Source of the DNA: Erysipelothrix sp.
GTDB taxonomy: Bacteria > Bacillota_I > Bacilli_A > Erysipelotrichales > Erysipelotrichaceae
Assembly (NCBI GenBank): GCA_012735275.1
Contig: JAAYHR010000018.1
Location: 1 to 64,000 of the forward strand
Direction: 5' to 3'
Length of the DNA: 64,000 bases
Part shown: piece by piece, positions 27,822 through 51,152 of the stretch
How positions within the stretch are numbered: the first letter of the stretch is position 1
Layout of the letters: every line of letters starts with the position of its first letter
Translations under genes and position numbers: made by a program
The notes under the pieces: model-generated
What the model was told of the DNA's origin: nothing
The model's input: the letters and a program-made list of their open reading frames with translations, nothing else
Databases searched by the model: none

Positions 27822-29339
27822 TTATAGTAATGGACTAAAGACACCAATAACCTGTCTTATAGCTCGCTTAATTCTTGATGTATTTAAGACATCGGCTTCA
27901 GTAATTTCAATACTTGCGGCAATTGTTTCTTCAAAGTCTTTAATTAAGCCATCAATTGCTTTTGTTTTATACATGATTGCACCACTCTCGAAGTTTAGAT
28001 AGTAAGATCTAAAATCTAAGTTGGCAGATCCAACAATACCAGTAGTATCATCAGATAATAAGTTTTTTGAATGAATAAAGCCAGGCTTATATTCATAAAT
28101 ACGCACACCATTAGCAATGAAGTCAGCATAGTTTGACTGTGTCACCGCATGGACATACCATTTATCTGGCTTATGCGGAACAATAATTCTAACATCAACC
28201 CCTGATTTACTCGTTAGAATTAGCATACGCTTCATCTCATTAGATGGGATTAAGTATGGTGTCATAATATATAAGTATTTTTTTGAGTTAATAATAAAGT
28301 TTAAATGGATATTCTCACCAAGAGCTTCACCATCGGTTGGACTATCTGAGTAAGGTTGAACATAACCTTGACCCGTAAATTCATAATTAGGATTATAGAC
28401 TTCTATGTCTTCTTCAATATTATTTAAGACATTCCAAAATTGCAGGAACATAACGGTTAAGGACCAGACTGCTGCCCCTTCTAGTTTAATTGCTGAATCT
28501 TTCCAGTGACCAAAACGTTCTAATCTATTAACATATTCATCACCAAGATTTATACCACCTAAGTAGCCAACCTTACCATCGATAGATAAGATTTTTCTGT
28601 GGTCACGATTATTCATTTGAACTAACATGACTGGACGCAGTTTATTAAAGACATGCACCTTAATTCCATAACTCTCTAAGGTTTCTTGATAATTATCCGG
28701 AAGATTCGTAATTGTTCCCGCATCATCATACATAACTCTAACATCGACACCTTGTCTAACTTTTTTAATTAAGATATCTAACATTGAGTTCCACATAATT
28801 CCTTCACGAATAATGAAATATTCTAAGAAGATATATTTTTCGGCTTTTTCAAGTTCAATTAGCATCGAAGCTAGTTTATCTTCACCAACTGGATAATAGT
28901 CAACATCAGTATTCTCATAAACTGGAAATGAGCCAGCTCGTAAGATATACTCAAACTGTTTTTCCATTGATTTCGACTTCAATTTAATCTCTTCAAGTAA
29001 CCTTGTATCTTGTGGTAAAACTAAGGCTGGATCTAAATTCTTTTGTTCTTTTAAACGACGGAGTCCCTTTGGTATTTGCTTATTAGCAAACATTAAATAA
29101 ATTAGTGCTCCAAAACCTGGAATTAGTAAGATAATTACAATCCAAGCAACCGATATTGACTGGTTTTTACTAGAGTTAACTAATTCAATTACGATAAATA
29201 AACCAATGACTGTTAAAATGATATCAACGATTGGTGGAAGTCCCCCAAATAATTCAATAACAATATACAATTGTAATACGAGAAGTAGAACAACTAGAAC
29301 CAATCTGCTCGATAAGAACTTAAATATTCTTTTTAACAT
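27822..29339 (-). CDS. cls: Cardiolipin synthase
   Basis: Two N-terminal TMs and two HKD motifs: HRKILSIDGKVGYLGGINLGDEY and HSKNLLSDDTTGIVGSANLDFRS. Confidence 0.94.
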   Translation of the reverse strand: MLKRIFKFLSSRLVLVVLLLVLQLYIVIELFGGLPPIVDIILTVIGLFIVIELVNSSKNQSISVAWIVIILLIPGFGALIYLMFANKQIPKGLRRLKEQKNLDPALVLPQDTRLLEEIKLKSKSMEKQFEYILRAGSFPVYENTDVDYYPVGEDKLASMLIELEKAEKYIFLEYFIIREGIMWNSMLDILIKKVRQGVDVRVMYDDAGTITNLPDNYQETLESYGIKVHVFNKLRPVMLVQMNNRDHRKILSIDGKVGYLGGINLGDEYVNRLERFGHWKDSAIKLEGAAVWSLTVMFLQFWNVLNNIEEDIEVYNPNYEFTGQGYVQPYSDSPTDGEALGENIHLNFIINSKKYLYIMTPYLIPSNEMKRMLILTSKSGVDVRIIVPHKPDKWYVHAVTQSNYADFIANGVRIYEYKPGFIHSKNLLSDDTTGIVGSANLDFRSYYLNFESGAIMYKTKAIDGLIKDFEETIAASIEITEADVLNTSRIKRAIRQVIGVFSPLL

Positions 29340-43287: not shown

Positions 43288-44418
43288 TTATAAGTATTCT
43301 TTACCACGAACGTAAGTTTGAACTACTGAGTAATCATCTGCTAAAACCACTAAATCAGCATCATAGCCAACTTTAATTTTACCTTTACGATCATCAACAT
43401 TAATTGCTCGTGCTGGGTTAATTGTCGCCGCATCTAGTGCTAATCTAAATGGTACTTCAACTTCTTCAACTAATTTTCTTAGACCTTCATTAACTTTTAA
43501 TGTTGAGCCTGAGATTGTATTAGTTCCTTTTAGGTATGCTGTACCAAAATCATCAACAACGATTTGGTTTCCACCTAACTCATAATCACCTTTTGGCATT
43601 CCTTTAAGTGTTAGTGAGTCAGTAATTAGCATTAATCCAGTTGGATTTGTTTTAAATAATGCATTTACTACTGCTGGGTGGACGTGACGTGTATCTGAGA
43701 TAATTTCTGCAAATACATCTGAGCGCATAACTGCTCCAACAACATTAGGATCACGGTGGTGAAGTCCTGTCATACCATTAAATGTATGAGTAAATGAGTT
43801 AGCTCCATTAGCAATACCAATAATAGCTTCTTCATAAGTTGCGCCAGTATGACCTTGTGATACTAGTACACCATTTTGTGATAAGTATTGTGTTAATTCA
43901 AAATCTTTATCGTGTTCAGTTGCCATCGTAATGATTTTAATTAAACCTTCCGCCGCATTTTGGAACTTTTTAAATTGTTCAACTGATGGAGGAACAATGT
44001 GTTGTGGAGGTTGTGCCCCTTTATATTCCATATCTAAGTATGGTCCTTCAAAGTGGATACCAAGAATTTCTGCTCCCTTAGGATTTGTTTTATGAACTTT
44101 AGCAACGTTTGCTACTGCATTAGTAAGAACTTCTTCACTCTGAGTAACCGTTGTTGGTAGAATACCGGTAATACCTTCTTCAGGTAGACGGTCTAACCAT
44201 CTTTCTAATCCTTCAACATTAGCATCATTAGTATCAAAACCATATGCTCCATGTGCATGTACGTCAATAAAGCCTGGGACAATTCTCTGGTTGTCATAAT
44301 CTTTATCTACTGTTTTTGAATCATAAGGATAAACATTTACGATTTTGTCATCTAAAATTTCAACTTGAGCAGCTAGAAACTGTCCACCTAGCCAAACTCT
44401 TTTACTTTGCACTATCAT
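43288..44418 (-). CDS. nagA: N-acetylglucosamine-6-phosphate deacetylase
   Basis: VPGFIDVHAHGAYGFDTND, HFEGPYLDMEYKGAQPP, SQGHTGATYEEA, FTHTFNGMTGLHHRDPNVVGAVM, LITDSLTLKGMPKGDYELGG. Confidence 0.93.
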   Translation of the reverse strand: MIVQSKRVWLGGQFLAAQVEILDDKIVNVYPYDSKTVDKDYDNQRIVPGFIDVHAHGAYGFDTNDANVEGLERWLDRLPEEGITGILPTTVTQSEEVLTNAVANVAKVHKTNPKGAEILGIHFEGPYLDMEYKGAQPPQHIVPPSVEQFKKFQNAAEGLIKIITMATEHDKDFELTQYLSQNGVLVSQGHTGATYEEAIIGIANGANSFTHTFNGMTGLHHRDPNVVGAVMRSDVFAEIISDTRHVHPAVVNALFKTNPTGLMLITDSLTLKGMPKGDYELGGNQIVVDDFGTAYLKGTNTISGSTLKVNEGLRKLVEEVEVPFRLALDAATINPARAINVDDRKGKIKVGYDADLVVLADDYSVVQTYVRGKEYL

Positions 44419-44481: not shown

Positions 44482-45510
44482 TTAATCTTCAATATATTTA
44501 ATAATATTATCGATTAAGACATTTCTTTCTTTTAAAATTTTCACATTGTCACGACTTGGATAAGTTCGATTACATAAATTAATAATCGCTAATTCTTTTT
44601 TGAAATCAATTAATAACATTGGGCCTGAAAATCCCGTATGATATATGATTTGATCTGAAGTTAGACTACCTTGTGAAAAGGCTGGATCTTTTAAACCATA
44701 ACCAAGTGTCCGTTGAATATTTAAACCATTTGTGAATGATGATTTTAAAAGTTCTACTGTTTCTTCTTTAAATATTCTATGATTAAAGAGACTACCATTA
44801 TTTAATAACATTAATGCGAAATTACTTAAATCATTAATATTTGAGAATAGACCAGCATTGCCTGATAAACCATCAAGTAAGTAAGCTTTTCCATCCATTA
44901 CTTGCCCTTTAATTAAACCACGGCTTGCGTGCATTTCACTTGGAGCAATTAGCTCCTGATTTAATTTACTTGGGACGTAAGTCGTTGAGAGCATGCGTAA
45001 TGGTTTAAAGAGAAAGTCACTTAAGTAATCTTCGATTGAACCTTTATAGTGCTCGATGATTAATCCAAGTAGATTAAAGCCAAAGTCACTATAAAGAACT
45101 TGACTATTGCTTGGATAAACTAATTCTAGATTGTAAAGAAAAGCAATATACTCGTCACGACTTGTCGCATTACGATAGTCTTTATCATCAGCCGGTAATC
45201 CTGATTGATGAGTTAGTAAATCCATAATTGTTGACTCATGTTTGTAGTCACTGAGGATTTTTTTTACTTTTGTATCTAGTTGAAAGTGGCCTTCTTCAAG
45301 TAACTTTAAGATAGCACTTGTGGTTCCTACATCTTTAGAAACTGATGCTAAATCATAGATAGTTTCTATTGAAGTCGAATGATTTTCTTGGCTTTCACCA
45401 ACAAAAAAGAGTTCACGACTCTCTTTTGTAATTATTGATAAAACCATTCCTATAACTACATCATTATCTACTAGATCTTGCATATAATTATATAAATCGT
45501 TTCGATTCAT
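44482..45510 (-). CDS. Serine hydrolase / beta-lactamase-fold (class C PBP-like) protein
   Basis: SxxK (ASVSK), YSDFGFN (YxN), HTGFSG (HxG). Confidence 0.9.
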   Translation of the reverse strand: MNRNDLYNYMQDLVDNDVVIGMVLSIITKESRELFFVGESQENHSTSIETIYDLASVSKDVGTTSAILKLLEEGHFQLDTKVKKILSDYKHESTIMDLLTHQSGLPADDKDYRNATSRDEYIAFLYNLELVYPSNSQVLYSDFGFNLLGLIIEHYKGSIEDYLSDFLFKPLRMLSTTYVPSKLNQELIAPSEMHASRGLIKGQVMDGKAYLLDGLSGNAGLFSNINDLSNFALMLLNNGSLFNHRIFKEETVELLKSSFTNGLNIQRTLGYGLKDPAFSQGSLTSDQIIYHTGFSGPMLLIDFKKELAIINLCNRTYPSRDNVKILKERNVLIDNIIKYIED

Positions 45511-45511
45511 T

Positions 45512-45922
45512 TTACTCGTCTTCCTCTTCGTCTTCCATTCCAGCTAGTTGTGCTTTAATGTCGATGATTCCGTTTTTTGCTTCTCCGATTAGGAATTCTG
45601 CATCTACACCTGGTGTTAGAACTGCAGTTAATACCATTGGGAAGTTAACGCCTGCAATCATAGAAACGTTTTCCTTTGCTGCAAGTTTCATAAATACTGT
45701 ATTTCCTGGTGATCCCCCAAATAGGTCAGTAAATACAAAGATATCTTCATATTTTTCTAATTCTGGTAGAATTGCTTCTAATTTTTCTTCAAGTTCAGCT
45801 GGTCCACCTTCTGGTGAAAGTCCTAATGCATATACTTCTTCTCTTACTCCGGCAACCATTTCCACTGACATTTTCATGCCTGCTGCTAAGTCACCATGAC
45901 TTACGATTAAAAAACCTCTCAT
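45512..45922 (-). CDS. PTS mannose-family EIIA component
   Basis: MRGFLIVSHGDLAAGMKMSVEMVAG, DLFGGSPGNTVFM. Confidence 0.93.
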   Translation of the reverse strand: MRGFLIVSHGDLAAGMKMSVEMVAGVREEVYALGLSPEGGPAELEEKLEAILPELEKYEDIFVFTDLFGGSPGNTVFMKLAAKENVSMIAGVNFPMVLTAVLTPGVDAEFLIGEAKNGIIDIKAQLAGMEDEEEDE

Positions 45923-45991: not shown

Positions 45992-46867
45992 TTAAACTAA
46001 GATATTGATTGGAGTGTATTGTCCAAGTGCTGCAAATAACAGACATAGAACAATAGTACCCATGATTAATTTGTTAGAGTTCATTCCTTCTTTACCTAGT
46101 AGGTAGTAAGCTGTTGCTACTAATATTACTGAGCCGAATTTAGGCATGATTTTATCAAATAAATCTGCTTGGAAGTTAATGAAGTAGTCTGGTACTTTTA
46201 CAAGATCACCGTTTACTTCAACTTCTTTCATAGCTTGAGTTCCTGTACGGATACCACCGAATGTTAAGTTAACCATTGTAGCCGTCATACCACCAATAAC
46301 TGTGATCCCTAATACAGAAGCTGCATCAGTGAACGCGTTTAATTGACCTGATAATGTTGTAACTAGGTTTGTACCTTGACGGTAACCTAAGTTAAAGAAG
46401 ATTGGACGAATAACTAATAATACAATTAGTGACCAAGCTACAAGTAAGAATAATCCTAAATATGATCCTGACATTGAGAAGTCAACTGCTAAAGCACCAA
46501 AGATTGTTGATGCGATCATTCCGAATACTGTATCTCCGATACCTGCGAATGGTCCCATTAATGATGTTTTAATTGCTGCTGCCGTATCAATTACGTCTGC
46601 TCCACCTGCTTGCTCTTCAAGAGCGATGTTCATACCGATAATAATATCAGCCATGCTAGGTTGAGTGTTAAAGAATTGTGAATGTGTTCTTAAAGCTTTA
46701 TCCATTAACTCTGGGTTATCACCATATGAATTTTTAAGAACTGGAAGCATAGCCGTTAAGTATCCAAGACCTTGCATTCTTTCATAGTTCCATCCAATTT
46801 GCATATGCCAGATGTTAGACCAGTGTAATTTTTTTAGTTCTGCTTTAGTATATCTTTTATTCGTCAT
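45992..46867 (-). CDS. PTS mannose-family EIID component
   Basis: WNYERMQGLGYLTAMLPVLKNSYGD, FFNTQPSMADIIIGMNIALEE, GPFAGIGDTVFG. Confidence 0.95.
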   Translation of the reverse strand: MTNKRYTKAELKKLHWSNIWHMQIGWNYERMQGLGYLTAMLPVLKNSYGDNPELMDKALRTHSQFFNTQPSMADIIIGMNIALEEQAGGADVIDTAAAIKTSLMGPFAGIGDTVFGMIASTIFGALAVDFSMSGSYLGLFLLVAWSLIVLLVIRPIFFNLGYRQGTNLVTTLSGQLNAFTDAASVLGITVIGGMTATMVNLTFGGIRTGTQAMKEVEVNGDLVKVPDYFINFQADLFDKIMPKFGSVILVATAYYLLGKEGMNSNKLIMGTIVLCLLFAALGQYTPINILV

Positions 46868-47666
46868 ATTCTTCGTCTCCTCCTAAACCTGCATCAGTTC
46901 CACCAGTAACTTGGACTGTTTGTCCTTCAATATTGTTACGGTAAACAATTAATGCTGCTGCAAGACCGATTAATGAGATTCCTAATACTGATATGTTTAA
47001 GAATGCCGCTAATACGAATCCGACAACTAACCATGAGAAATGTCTCTTGATTGGTAAGTATTTTAATAAGATTGCGAAACCGATACCTGGAAGTAATCTA
47101 CCAGCGATTGCGAACCCTTGAGTTAACCAAGGAACATAGTTTGCGATCCATTCAGTAATAAATAGAACTGCTTCTTCACCAAAGAATAATGCAACGAACA
47201 TTGGAATAGCTCTTGATAGTGACCAAGGAATAGTTCCCATTAAGTTCATACGTTTAATTCCAGCTAAGTCGCCAGCTTCAACATATACGTCTGCTCTTCT
47301 TTGGAAGAATGTATTTGACATTCTACCTAAGATATCAAACTGAACACCTAATGCTGCTAGCGGTACACCAATTAATGTAATTAGTGACTCGGCTTGTTCA
47401 ACACTTGATCCTAAAGCTGTAACTAGCATTGCTGCTGAAGTCCAGTTAGGAATAGATGCTCCACCATAAGTACCTATACCTAGAGCATACGATTGTAACG
47501 TACCTCCGACCATCAGTCCTAAATCAGGACGTCCTACAATTAAACCTGTAACTACTCCGGTTTGAATAATACCGTTTAGTCCAACGTTGAATGATAATCC
47601 ATCAACCATGGCAATACCCGAGTAGATTGTCAGGAATAATATCTGAAAAATTCCTAAATTATTCAT
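46857..47666 (-). CDS. PTS mannose-family EIIC component
   Basis: VVTGLIVGRPDLGLMVGGTLQSYALGIGTYGGASIPNW, LPGIGFAILLKYLP. Confidence 0.94.
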   Translation of the reverse strand: MNNLGIFQILFLTIYSGIAMVDGLSFNVGLNGIIQTGVVTGLIVGRPDLGLMVGGTLQSYALGIGTYGGASIPNWTSAAMLVTALGSSVEQAESLITLIGVPLAALGVQFDILGRMSNTFFQRRADVYVEAGDLAGIKRMNLMGTIPWSLSRAIPMFVALFFGEEAVLFITEWIANYVPWLTQGFAIAGRLLPGIGFAILLKYLPIKRHFSWLVVGFVLAAFLNISVLGISLIGLAAALIVYRNNIEGQTVQVTGGTDAGLGGDEEYDE

Positions 47667-47705: not shown

Positions 47706-48200
47706 TTACGCGAATAGATTCTCATCTAATATGATTGGCGCAAAATCAACAATTTCATCATCTGGAATCATCTGTGCAGTAATTTTAACGCCGTGATCTA
47801 ATAGAGTTTTAAACTCTTTTACATCTTCCGGTGTTACCCCTACCGAACGTCTGACTTGTACACTACCGAATTTAGATGACATGTTACCTACGTTAACAGT
47901 TTCCATCTTGTAGCCTGCGTCATAAACTTCGCGAAGCGTTTTCGGATTACGGACGATTACGAAGACATTTTCCCCTTCGTACTTTCCTTCAATTAAATTT
48001 TTAGCTGCTGTTGGTACAGTTAAGATTGAAAGCTTAACACCACCTGGTGTAGCCATTTTCAAAGCCATCTTTTGGATTTGATCCTTAGCTGCGAAATCGT
48101 CTATAACTAAAATTCTATGTGCATTAAGATTACGAGTCCAATATGCAGCTACCTGCCCGTGGATTAATCTCTCGTCAATTCTAATGTTTACTACTTTCAT
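47706..48200 (-). CDS. PTS mannose-family EIIB component
   Basis: IRIDERLIHGQVAAYWTRNLNAHRILVIDD; RBS supports start at 48200 (MKVVNIR). Confidence 0.94.
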   Translation of the reverse strand: MKVVNIRIDERLIHGQVAAYWTRNLNAHRILVIDDFAAKDQIQKMALKMATPGGVKLSILTVPTAAKNLIEGKYEGENVFVIVRNPKTLREVYDAGYKMETVNVGNMSSKFGSVQVRRSVGVTPEDVKEFKTLLDHGVKITAQMIPDDEIVDFAPIILDENLFA

Positions 48201-48214
48201 AAAATCCCTCCTAA

Positions 48215-48229
48215 CTAAAACGTTTTCAT
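48215..48229. promoter_or_regulatory. cre-like catabolite-repression site
   Basis: Minus strand ATGAAAACGTTTTAG, near the Gram-positive cre consensus WTGNAANCGNWNNCW (one clear mismatch). Confidence 0.5.
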
Positions 48230-48238
48230 TACGATTAA

Positions 48239-48267
48239 ATTGTATCACTTGAAAATCATTGTGTAAA
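48239..48267 (-). promoter_or_regulatory. Promoter of the PTS operon (TTTACA-17-TACAAT)
   Basis: Minus strand TTTACA (267..262), 17-nt spacer, TACAAT (244..239). Confidence 0.75.
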
Positions 48268-48341: not shown

Positions 48342-49268
48342 CTATACTATGAAATTATGGACAATATCGACGACTTTAGAGAATTTTTCTTCATCTATCT
48401 TCACATCATTTTCATTTAAGACATCAGAAATCTCATATCTATCATTAAATTTATCACAGACTGATATTGAGACAGCTTTATCGTAATATTGTAAGGCATT
48501 TTCTCTTAAACCTTCTTTATCTAAGGTAAATAAGTTCAATGAAGTATCCTTATTAGCAATCTTACGAGCTAAGCCAATATTCTCTTTTGTATGGGCAATA
48601 ACAATATGCTCACCATTACCAATCCCTTTTAAGTGAATAACATTCTTATCATCAATTGTTGTTGGCAGAGCTTCACGAATCATTAGATCACCAAGATTAT
48701 CAACAAACTCACGATCAGTTAAAACAAAAGCAGTATCAGCTGGCTTACGCTTAGCTAATTCTAAGATTGCTAAAAGACCCGAAGTATTTAAATTGGCGCT
48801 AACTTGATTTGGACGTCCCTTTAATAAAATATAGGCAATTACTGTCATGATGACCGTAATTAGAAGTGATGATATTCTTACAAACTGGCCACCAGCTCGA
48901 AAGACAATTGGAATAATAAACATTAAGATAACTCCAGTAATAATTACCACCATGGCATTAAAACGGTTTTTCTCATGTAATTCCTTTTGACTATCATTGT
49001 AAGAGTATGGGAAATACTTAGCTTTAGGATTAAGTGAATTAATCGTTGTATCGTATGGAGCAATAATTAAGTTCTTTGCATTAACGATATCACCGATATA
49101 ACAGTTAACTCCTGAATAGCGTTTCATATCCTTTTTTAGAATCTTGATTTCATAACCTAAATCAGTAAACTCCTTTGAGAAAACATTAAGGAAATATAGT
49201 TTCTCTGGTTCCTTGTAACGCATACCACCAGATACACCATACTTAAATACATTATCTTGTAAACTCAT
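48342..49268 (-). CDS. Membrane protein resembling a degenerate M28-family peptidase
   Basis: NLIIAPYDT, SANLNTSGLLAILELAK, TAFVLTDREFVDNLGD, NVIHLKGIGNGEHIVIA follow the M28 motif order; two TM helices in the middle. Confidence 0.5.
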   Translation of the reverse strand: MSLQDNVFKYGVSGGMRYKEPEKLYFLNVFSKEFTDLGYEIKILKKDMKRYSGVNCYIGDIVNAKNLIIAPYDTTINSLNPKAKYFPYSYNDSQKELHEKNRFNAMVVIITGVILMFIIPIVFRAGGQFVRISSLLITVIMTVIAYILLKGRPNQVSANLNTSGLLAILELAKRKPADTAFVLTDREFVDNLGDLMIREALPTTIDDKNVIHLKGIGNGEHIVIAHTKENIGLARKIANKDTSLNLFTLDKEGLRENALQYYDKAVSISVCDKFNDRYEISDVLNENDVKIDEEKFSKVVDIVHNFIV

Positions 49269-49270
49269 AA

Positions 49271-49771
49271 TTAATCCCTTTTCTTTCTACCAAAACGCAT
49301 TGAAGACCCGCGGGCATTTTCTCTAGCCTTAACTTGTTCACGGTGATTAGCTTCAAAAGCAAACTTTCTAAAATGAACTGAAACCTTACCAATACCAAAC
49401 ATGGCTATCTCATAAAAGTTACCATCATGTAGTTCAATAAATAATTGATCTTCCGCATTTGATGAAACTTTAAGATCCCAAGTTTTTACTTCAGGCCATT
49501 TAATTAATGTTACTAAATTATCTGCATCATAAATAAGAAAGAACTCTTCATAAATATCAACTACATTTCTTTTCTTAAATTTCATATATACGAAAGCAGT
49601 AAAAACAATAAACATTAGACCGAATATTCTTAGTTTCCATGAACCAAAGAGCATGGCAAATCCAACTAAGCCCGGCACAATGAAAACAGCAAGTGGTTTA
49701 TTATTAATCGACTTAATAAAAGTCCCTTGCGGAATTTCATCAATTTTATACTTTCTTACTTCTTCCATCAT
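49271..49771 (-). CDS. Small membrane protein of unknown function (PH-like?)
   Basis: Two adjacent TM helices then a soluble beta-rich region with a basic C-terminus; translationally adjacent to 48342..49268. Confidence 0.55.
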   Translation of the reverse strand: MMEEVRKYKIDEIPQGTFIKSINNKPLAVFIVPGLVGFAMLFGSWKLRIFGLMFIVFTAFVYMKFKKRNVVDIYEEFFLIYDADNLVTLIKWPEVKTWDLKVSSNAEDQLFIELHDGNFYEIAMFGIGKVSVHFRKFAFEANHREQVKARENARGSSMRFGRKKRD

Positions 49772-49776
49772 AGCGC

Positions 49777-50511
49777 TTATAATCCTTTTTCTTTATATAA
49801 ATCTTCTAAATCAATATTTGACTGTACATTTGGCGGATAGTTAACACTTCCTAAAATTCCAGGTTTTAATCCTTTAGCTAATAAGTTTTCTAAGGTATCA
49901 GACATAATCGCCCACATAATATATGCCGAAGATAAACCTGAAGCTGGAACAAATTTTTGATCAACACCATCAACATCTAACATACCATCACCATGTGGAG
50001 CACAGTTGTCAATTAATATATCAACAATTTCATATAGCTTCTTACCAGTTGGATGTAGTGAGTTTAATGATTTTGAGAACTCAACAGAAGTGATCCCAAT
50101 AACTTTAATTCCCATCTTAGTTGCGGCAATTGCTAAATCAACAACATGGAATGAAATCCCTGAGACTGATCCAATAAATAACACATCACCTGGATAGATA
50201 TTAGCTGACTTTAAAGCAAACTCAGCAAAACCTTCTAGATTACGATCTTTATCAGCTTCATGAGCATCTTGCACACGTGCTGTTGAAGTTAAGTTTAAAT
50301 TATATTTAAACTGTCTTAATAAGTTAAAGCCACCTGCACGGTTAAATAATTCCGAGTCGATAATATGCCCAGTATCGTACAAGTGAATTGTATGTCCGTT
50401 GGCAATAGTTTCTGAGCATAAGTTCCCTGCATCAGTGATTGCTTGGTCCTGACTTGTTTGAATAGTTTCAAATAAATCATCAATTGCTTTATAAAATCTA
50501 TTTCTTAACAT
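49777..50511 (-). CDS. SIS-domain sugar isomerase/phosphosugar-binding protein
   Basis: CSETIANGHTIHLYDTGHI, YPGDVLFIGSVSGISFHVVDLAIAATKMGIKVIGITSVEFSK. Confidence 0.85.
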   Translation of the reverse strand: MLRNRFYKAIDDLFETIQTSQDQAITDAGNLCSETIANGHTIHLYDTGHIIDSELFNRAGGFNLLRQFKYNLNLTSTARVQDAHEADKDRNLEGFAEFALKSANIYPGDVLFIGSVSGISFHVVDLAIAATKMGIKVIGITSVEFSKSLNSLHPTGKKLYEIVDILIDNCAPHGDGMLDVDGVDQKFVPASGLSSAYIMWAIMSDTLENLLAKGLKPGILGSVNYPPNVQSNIDLEDLYKEKGL

Positions 50512-50621: not shown

Positions 50622-51152
50622 ATGGAAACAAATATAATTGTAGCAATACTAACCGTAGGTTTAATTATCTATATGCTATACAATCGATTTACAATGTTTA
50701 TGGATCATAAAAAAGCACTTGATGAAGTTAATCATCGTGGCGATTTCAAAAAACTATTTACAGGCTGGCTAACATTAGGGGTATACTTAGTAACATTTGT
50801 ACTATCATCAACTTGGCTAGTAATAGTACTATTAAACAAAGAAAACTATACAGATAACGAGTTCTTACTTTGGGCCTTAATCTTAGCTGTCTTCATTGTA
50901 ACTTCAGCATCAGACTTAGTTAAAAACTCAGTACTACATACAACTTACTATAATGATCAAGGTATCTTCCACAACCAAACATACTTTAGATATAACTCAG
51001 TTAAAAACTTTAGAGTAAAACGTGGTGGTTTAGTAACCGAAGTTCATTTATACAATGGTGAAGTTCATTCAGTACCAACGAAAGCACTAACCTTCTTAGA
51101 AGATCGTATCGTAAAAGTAAAAGCAGAAAGTAATAAAGCAAAGAAAAAATAG
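50622..51152 (+). CDS. Membrane protein of unknown function (possible bacterial PH-like C-terminus)
   Basis: Three hydrophobic segments then TTYYNDQGIFHNQTYFRYNSVKNFRVKRGGLVTEVHLYNGEVHSVPTKA. Confidence 0.55.
   Translation: METNIIVAILTVGLIIYMLYNRFTMFMDHKKALDEVNHRGDFKKLFTGWLTLGVYLVTFVLSSTWLVIVLLNKENYTDNEFLLWALILAVFIVTSASDLVKNSVLHTTYYNDQGIFHNQTYFRYNSVKNFRVKRGGLVTEVHLYNGEVHSVPTKALTFLEDRIVKVKAESNKAKKK

Follow-up and report, generated by a model that had tools for sequence, protein, structure and literature searches.

Within the window, a 64,000-nucleotide stretch of Erysipelothrix sp. DNA (positions 1 to 64,000 of contig JAAYHR010000018.1), the gene at 48342..49268 on the minus strand encodes a membrane-tethered and probably catalytically dead homologue of the M28 peptidases. 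We put the chance at slightly better than even (about 55%) that this protein, here called pseudo-M28, serves as accessory or scaffold subunit to the mannose-family PTS of the same operon, a partner that we infer. The five zinc ligands of the M28 site are gone and the ligand-less relatives, spread over one family of gut bacteria, lie almost always in sugar-transporter or cardiolipin-synthase operons, so that it is probably a helper subunit and not an enzyme. An initial annotation of the sequence had proposed a retained M28 fold with lost chemistry, which is supported by a structural model, Foldseek matches, intact M28 relatives and ligand loss in 67 of 82 homologues. The binding or scaffold role that it suggested may now be linked to mannose-family PTS and cardiolipin-synthase operons. 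What we add is the partner, presumably a mannose-family PTS in most members and a cardiolipin synthase in another clade.

The gene, its fold and its former zinc site

The ORF starts with ATG and encodes 308 amino acids, and the open frames of its homologues mark it as a real gene. The motifs quoted in the initial annotation, APYDT (residues 70-74), SANLNTSG (157-164) and LTDREFVDN (183-191), are all present in the translation. Searched alone, the protein found nothing of note among Pfam or NCBIfam models and no PDB sequence, and it did not match the Pfam M28 model PF04389 even at E values up to 10. Because these single-sequence searches were uninformative, the family was assembled from whole genomes; its ligand-less group is described by no Pfam or NCBIfam model.

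The AF2 model, built with 49 homologues (pLDDT 94.7, pTM 0.90), confirms an M28-type alpha/beta fold at the level of predicted structure. The first Foldseek matches in the PDB were M28 glutaminyl cyclases and aminopeptidases (7d1e, E = 9.7e-8; 1qq9, E = 3.2e-7; TM about 0.6), and the structural comparison proposed with the initial annotation therefore returned an M28 fold, not a different one. The closest of these, the glutaminyl cyclases (7d1e, 6qql), share the fold but are zinc enzymes whose metal site is missing from the window protein. Fold and motif order are likewise common to the protein and the M28 metallopeptidases (the Vibrio proteolyticus and Streptomyces griseus aminopeptidases, PF04389), from which it differs in lacking the five zinc ligands and a Pfam M28 match and in carrying a hairpin inside the domain.

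Common descent with the active enzymes is supported, on sequence comparison, by the tree and by a profile-profile match between the ligand-less group and an intact, hairpin-bearing M28 group (E = 6.1e-56). The intact relatives exceed the curated PF04389 cut-off, and their profile aligns with solved M28 enzymes with the ligands in register. Against the V. proteolyticus aminopeptidase it aligns across the D, EE, D and H motifs, in agreement with the chain positions of what we take to be D117, E151/E152, D179 and H256 of that enzyme.

Alignment to the intact relatives, and through them to the V. proteolyticus enzyme, defines the ligand positions, and all five are replaced in the window protein (H71>P, D160>L, E188>F, D214>K, H284>L). 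P71 (49056..49058; this and the following codons are on the minus strand) takes the place of the zinc-ligand His of HYDT, a position set by the AHYDT motif of the intact members. L160 (48789..48791) stands for the bridging Asp of NDN, K214 (48627..48629) for the ligand Asp of FDC/LDC and L284 (48417..48419) for the ligand His of IHT. At the catalytic EE pair, now E187-F188 (48705..48710), the ligand Glu is gone and the general-base Glu is kept. The initial annotation had correctly read a lost His in APYDT and a lost bridging Asp in SANLNTSG; its altered EE region holds for the ligand Glu but not for the first E of the pair, and its account of ligand loss, right as far as it went, extends to the whole site. 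E187 is the sole catalytic-site residue left in the window protein and is not conserved elsewhere in the ligand-less group, where the position is mostly Gly or Asn.

Ligand loss and the TM hairpin across the family

A whole-genome search of the GTDB family to which the window belongs (273 genomes) found homologues in 73. The named relatives, Anaerorhabdus furcosa, Holdemania filiformis, H. massiliensis and a Solobacterium MAG, identify the host group as Erysipelotrichaceae. A contig scan for named relatives with the single window sequence returned none; the subfamily alignment as query did find relatives. A phylum-wide sample yielded only two more genomes with homologues outside the family, so that the restriction to this family is a sample-based one. 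The genomes are in part MAGs, and the window's own is 84.6% complete.

We aligned 82 full-length homologues, 67 of them without the site and 15 intact, and used them for a tree. The intact members have the ordinary M28 site (AHYDT, NDNTSG, FFDxEE, FDC, IHT). By number of ligands retained out of five, 15 members keep none, 42 one, 9 two, 1 three and 15 all five; 66 of the 67 non-intact members thus have at most two. The loss, whose conservation among homologues the initial annotation had left to an alignment, is kept in 67 of 82 members, and no homologue has a di-zinc site at a shifted position, the intact ones having ordinary ligands in ordinary places. The alignment, in which the ligand-less homologues share the loss of catalytic and metal residues, supports classing them as M28 pseudopeptidases. 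The tree separates an intact side from a ligand-less side by one change (SH-aLRT 99, most ligand columns omitted); it is a quick tree with no outgroup, and the direction of loss is taken from M28 being ancestrally active. One sequence from another family of the same class (locus L150, genome G483) is half-degenerate and groups beside the intact clade; its HYD motif and both the bridging and the ligand Asp are retained, but EE is replaced by RD and the last His by Lys.

Several residues of the former active-site loops remain conserved in the ligand-less group (Y72 94%, D73 94%, T74 93%, N161 90%, D185 100%), and a number of them are just as invariant among the intact members. Column conservation revealed no replacement set of conserved His, Cys or Glu among the ligand-less members. 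Of the 67 non-intact members, 53 have Arg or Lys at the bridging-Asp position, where the positive charge may replace that of the metal beside Asp73 and Asp214. The window protein belongs to a three-member subclade with Leu at 160 and Lys, Asn or Arg at 214, a position that is Asp in most others; since these changes belong to one lineage, we count them as one event.

The two TM helices that the initial annotation placed between the first two motifs appear in the AF2 secondary structure as a hairpin of residues 90-150 (helices 90-123 and 127-150; 48819..49001, minus strand). Both groups show two hydrophobic stretches, the ligand-less one in 66 of its 67 members and the intact one in 13 of 15. 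The hairpin is therefore older than the loss of chemistry, and we rejected it as a mark of the pseudoenzyme. Mean Lys/Arg counts in the ligand-less group are 1.6 and 1.6 in the flanks versus 1.0 in the hairpin loop. This bias, together with the absence of a signal peptide, hints that the M28 domain may face the cytosol.

Operon context of the pseudo-M28 genes

The window operon runs on the minus strand from 50511 to 43288 and comprises nine genes. It opens with a SIS-domain protein (sugar isomerase domain-containing; 49777..50511; Pfam SIS_2, 8.7e-24; NCBIfam PRK02947, 3.1e-53), followed after 5 bp by TM166 (49271..49771) and after a further 2 bp by pseudo-M28, in line with the operon that the initial annotation had thought likely. 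Downstream of pseudo-M28 lie the mannose-family PTS genes for IIB (47706..48248; PF03830, 1.5e-48), IIC (46857..47666; PF03609, 9.8e-55), IID (45992..46867; PF03613, 2e-74) and IIA (45512..45922; PF03610, 4.2e-23), and then a serine beta-lactamase-fold protein (44482..45510; PF00144, 3.1e-43) and a NagA-like amidohydrolase (43288..44418; PF01979, 4.8e-25), from sequence and context probably an N-acetylhexosamine-6-phosphate deacetylase. The 93-bp gap ahead of IIB contains a promoter-like sequence at the level of a consensus match.

TM166 is predicted to have two N-terminal TM helices and a PH-like cytosolic domain (AF2 pLDDT 82.7); its Foldseek matches to PH domains are weak (best E = 1.4e-3), as is a bPH_7 match in one TM166 family member. 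Homologues of TM166 lie near 20 ligand-less members. A small TM protein, TM176, is divergently transcribed beside the operon (50622..51152, plus strand); in several genomes its homologues are found alongside TM166 and pseudo-M28, and TM166 and TM176 may be distantly related.

Neighbours in other genomes were labelled with iterative HMMs seeded with the window proteins. PTS genes lie within 4.5 kb of 39 of the 67 ligand-less members, a cardiolipin-synthase-like gene beside 16, and neither near 2, with too little context for 10; among the 15 intact members such neighbours occur in 0 of the 10 with enough context. These rows share ancestry, and we therefore claim no independent-sample p-value. 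IIB is near 18 of 20 non-cardiolipin loci, versus 0.73 expected from the IIB count per genome, and a separate scan placed an IIB gene about 1 kb off in the two loci missed (G168, G255). Elsewhere pseudo-M28 sits between IIB and IIA, as in IIC-IID-IIB-pseudoM28-IIA (L113, L114), or directly after IIB or IID. Both IIB genes detected in the window's genome adjoin its two pseudo-M28 genes. The second of these (L031:6912-7772, G000 contig C34) is very divergent and lies in an operon of the order IIA-IIB-IIC-IID-pseudoM28-YdjC-like-NagA.

Pseudo-M28 distances track those of IID over 29 loci (Mantel r = 0.71; 0 of 5000 permutations reach it, the largest giving 0.26), and pseudo-M28 evolves faster than IID. 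In these genomes there are also many PTS copies that have no pseudo-M28. The data did not support one common origin for all PTS with a pseudo-M28, whose IID subunits are scattered over several clades; in that analysis the window's own IID (L189) was mislabelled as 'without' pseudo-M28, its locus being short.

PTS and cardiolipin-synthase contexts occupy separate parts of the tree. The cardiolipin-synthase-like gene is PLD-type (PF13091, PF13396), a name that reflects domain content only. In eleven loci of the cardiolipin clade the ligand-less M28 gene is directly upstream of it, and a patatin-like phospholipase gene often comes next. The window itself has a PLD-type cardiolipin-synthase-like gene (27822..29339, minus strand), which is not adjacent to a pseudo-M28, unlike those of the cardiolipin clade.

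Candidate roles and related systems

Pseudo-M28 is encoded in a PTS operon and co-diverges with its permease, as expected of a PTS accessory subunit. Its TM hairpin would pack against IIC/IID, and pseudo-M28 and the PH-like TM166 together may help in putting the permease together, in localising or regulating it, or alternatively in linking it to the operon's amino-sugar enzymes. Inheritance of the operon as a unit can also explain the co-divergence and the conserved gene order, and evolution faster than that of IID fits a loosely constrained accessory protein or regulator as well as a subunit. The main rival is a ligand-binding sensor, in which the emptied active-site pocket would bind a small molecule of the cytosol, such as an N-acetylated amino-sugar phosphate, and signal to the PTS or TM166 without being a structural subunit. 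NagA, YdjC-like or SIS genes near 27 of the 39 PTS-linked members suit such a ligand, as do the prevalent Arg or Lys at the bridging position and the former active-site loop residues (Y72, D73, T74, N161, D185), which are among the most conserved ligand-less columns. Those residues that are no less conserved among the intact members may however be structural, and the Arg is lost from the window's own subclade; we regard a sensor as unlikely, if worth serious consideration.

The 16 members beside a cardiolipin-synthase-like gene, not a PTS, make a PTS-specific role impossible for the whole family. Both systems are membrane systems, and a general chaperone or scaffold for membrane enzymes, duplicated into several operons and belonging to no single system, would account for the two kinds of neighbour; the separation of the contexts on the tree and the strong co-divergence with IID suggest specialisation instead, which makes a general chaperone improbable. 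That the protein is still an enzyme, with metal ligands elsewhere or a new chemistry that needs no metal, could appeal to the kept Glu187 and to the conserved D73 and D185, but it is hard to square with five missing ligands, a base position that is mostly Gly or Asn in the family and the lack of a new conserved His/Cys/Glu set, and we give it very little weight. Least probable of all is a decaying gene heading for loss: divergence is indeed fast, with 59% identity even to a same-genus relative, but frames are open in nearly all homologues, the motifs are conserved and the place in the operon is held across dozens of genera. Beyond the accessory-subunit reading for the window protein we offer, tentatively and as a proposal that may well fail, a broader one in which an unnamed bacterial pseudopeptidase family provides a dedicated, hairpin-anchored subunit to mannose-family PTS permeases (in one clade together with TM166) and to cardiolipin synthase in a sister clade.

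Inactive M28-fold proteins of eukaryotes (transferrin receptor, nicastrin, nicalin) are membrane-anchored and bind proteins without peptidase activity. Like them the window protein combines an M28-type fold, presumably devoid of peptidase activity, with a membrane anchor; their anchors, however, lie outside the fold and their domains are extracytoplasmic, whereas the window protein has its hairpin within a domain predicted to be cytosolic, is bacterial and is tied to PTS operons. M28-fold pseudoenzymes are known to us mainly from animals. A literature search found no bacterial M28 pseudopeptidase or named PTS partner of this kind, and a review of metallo-pseudopeptidases leaves M28 unmentioned (PMC11266112). 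With a widespread bacterial ligand-less group and an intact sister clade in the same family, the loss of chemistry and the gain of an operon partner can be traced on one tree.

Small non-catalytic proteins of mannose-PTS operons have a precedent in ManO/DUF956 (PF06115), which has a role in other Firmicutes. Pseudo-M28 resembles it in being encoded with a mannose-family PTS, and we rejected their identity since the sequences are unrelated and the Pfam scan found no DUF956 domain in the window protein. The window's genome has no DUF956 match, and of 17 family genomes searched 16 lack the domain; in the 17th it is at another PTS. Mannose-family PTS are main sugar importers of gut Firmicutes and also bacteriocin receptors (e.g. 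PMC5566476). If these proposals are correct, the transporters would have to be redrawn and reannotated with a further, hitherto unrecognised subunit, and a dead protease fold would have become an integral component of systems for sugar transport and membrane lipids; the cardiolipin-synthase context offers a second, independent test of its role. Homologues of the serine beta-lactamase-fold protein of the window's amino-sugar PTS operon recur in five related loci.
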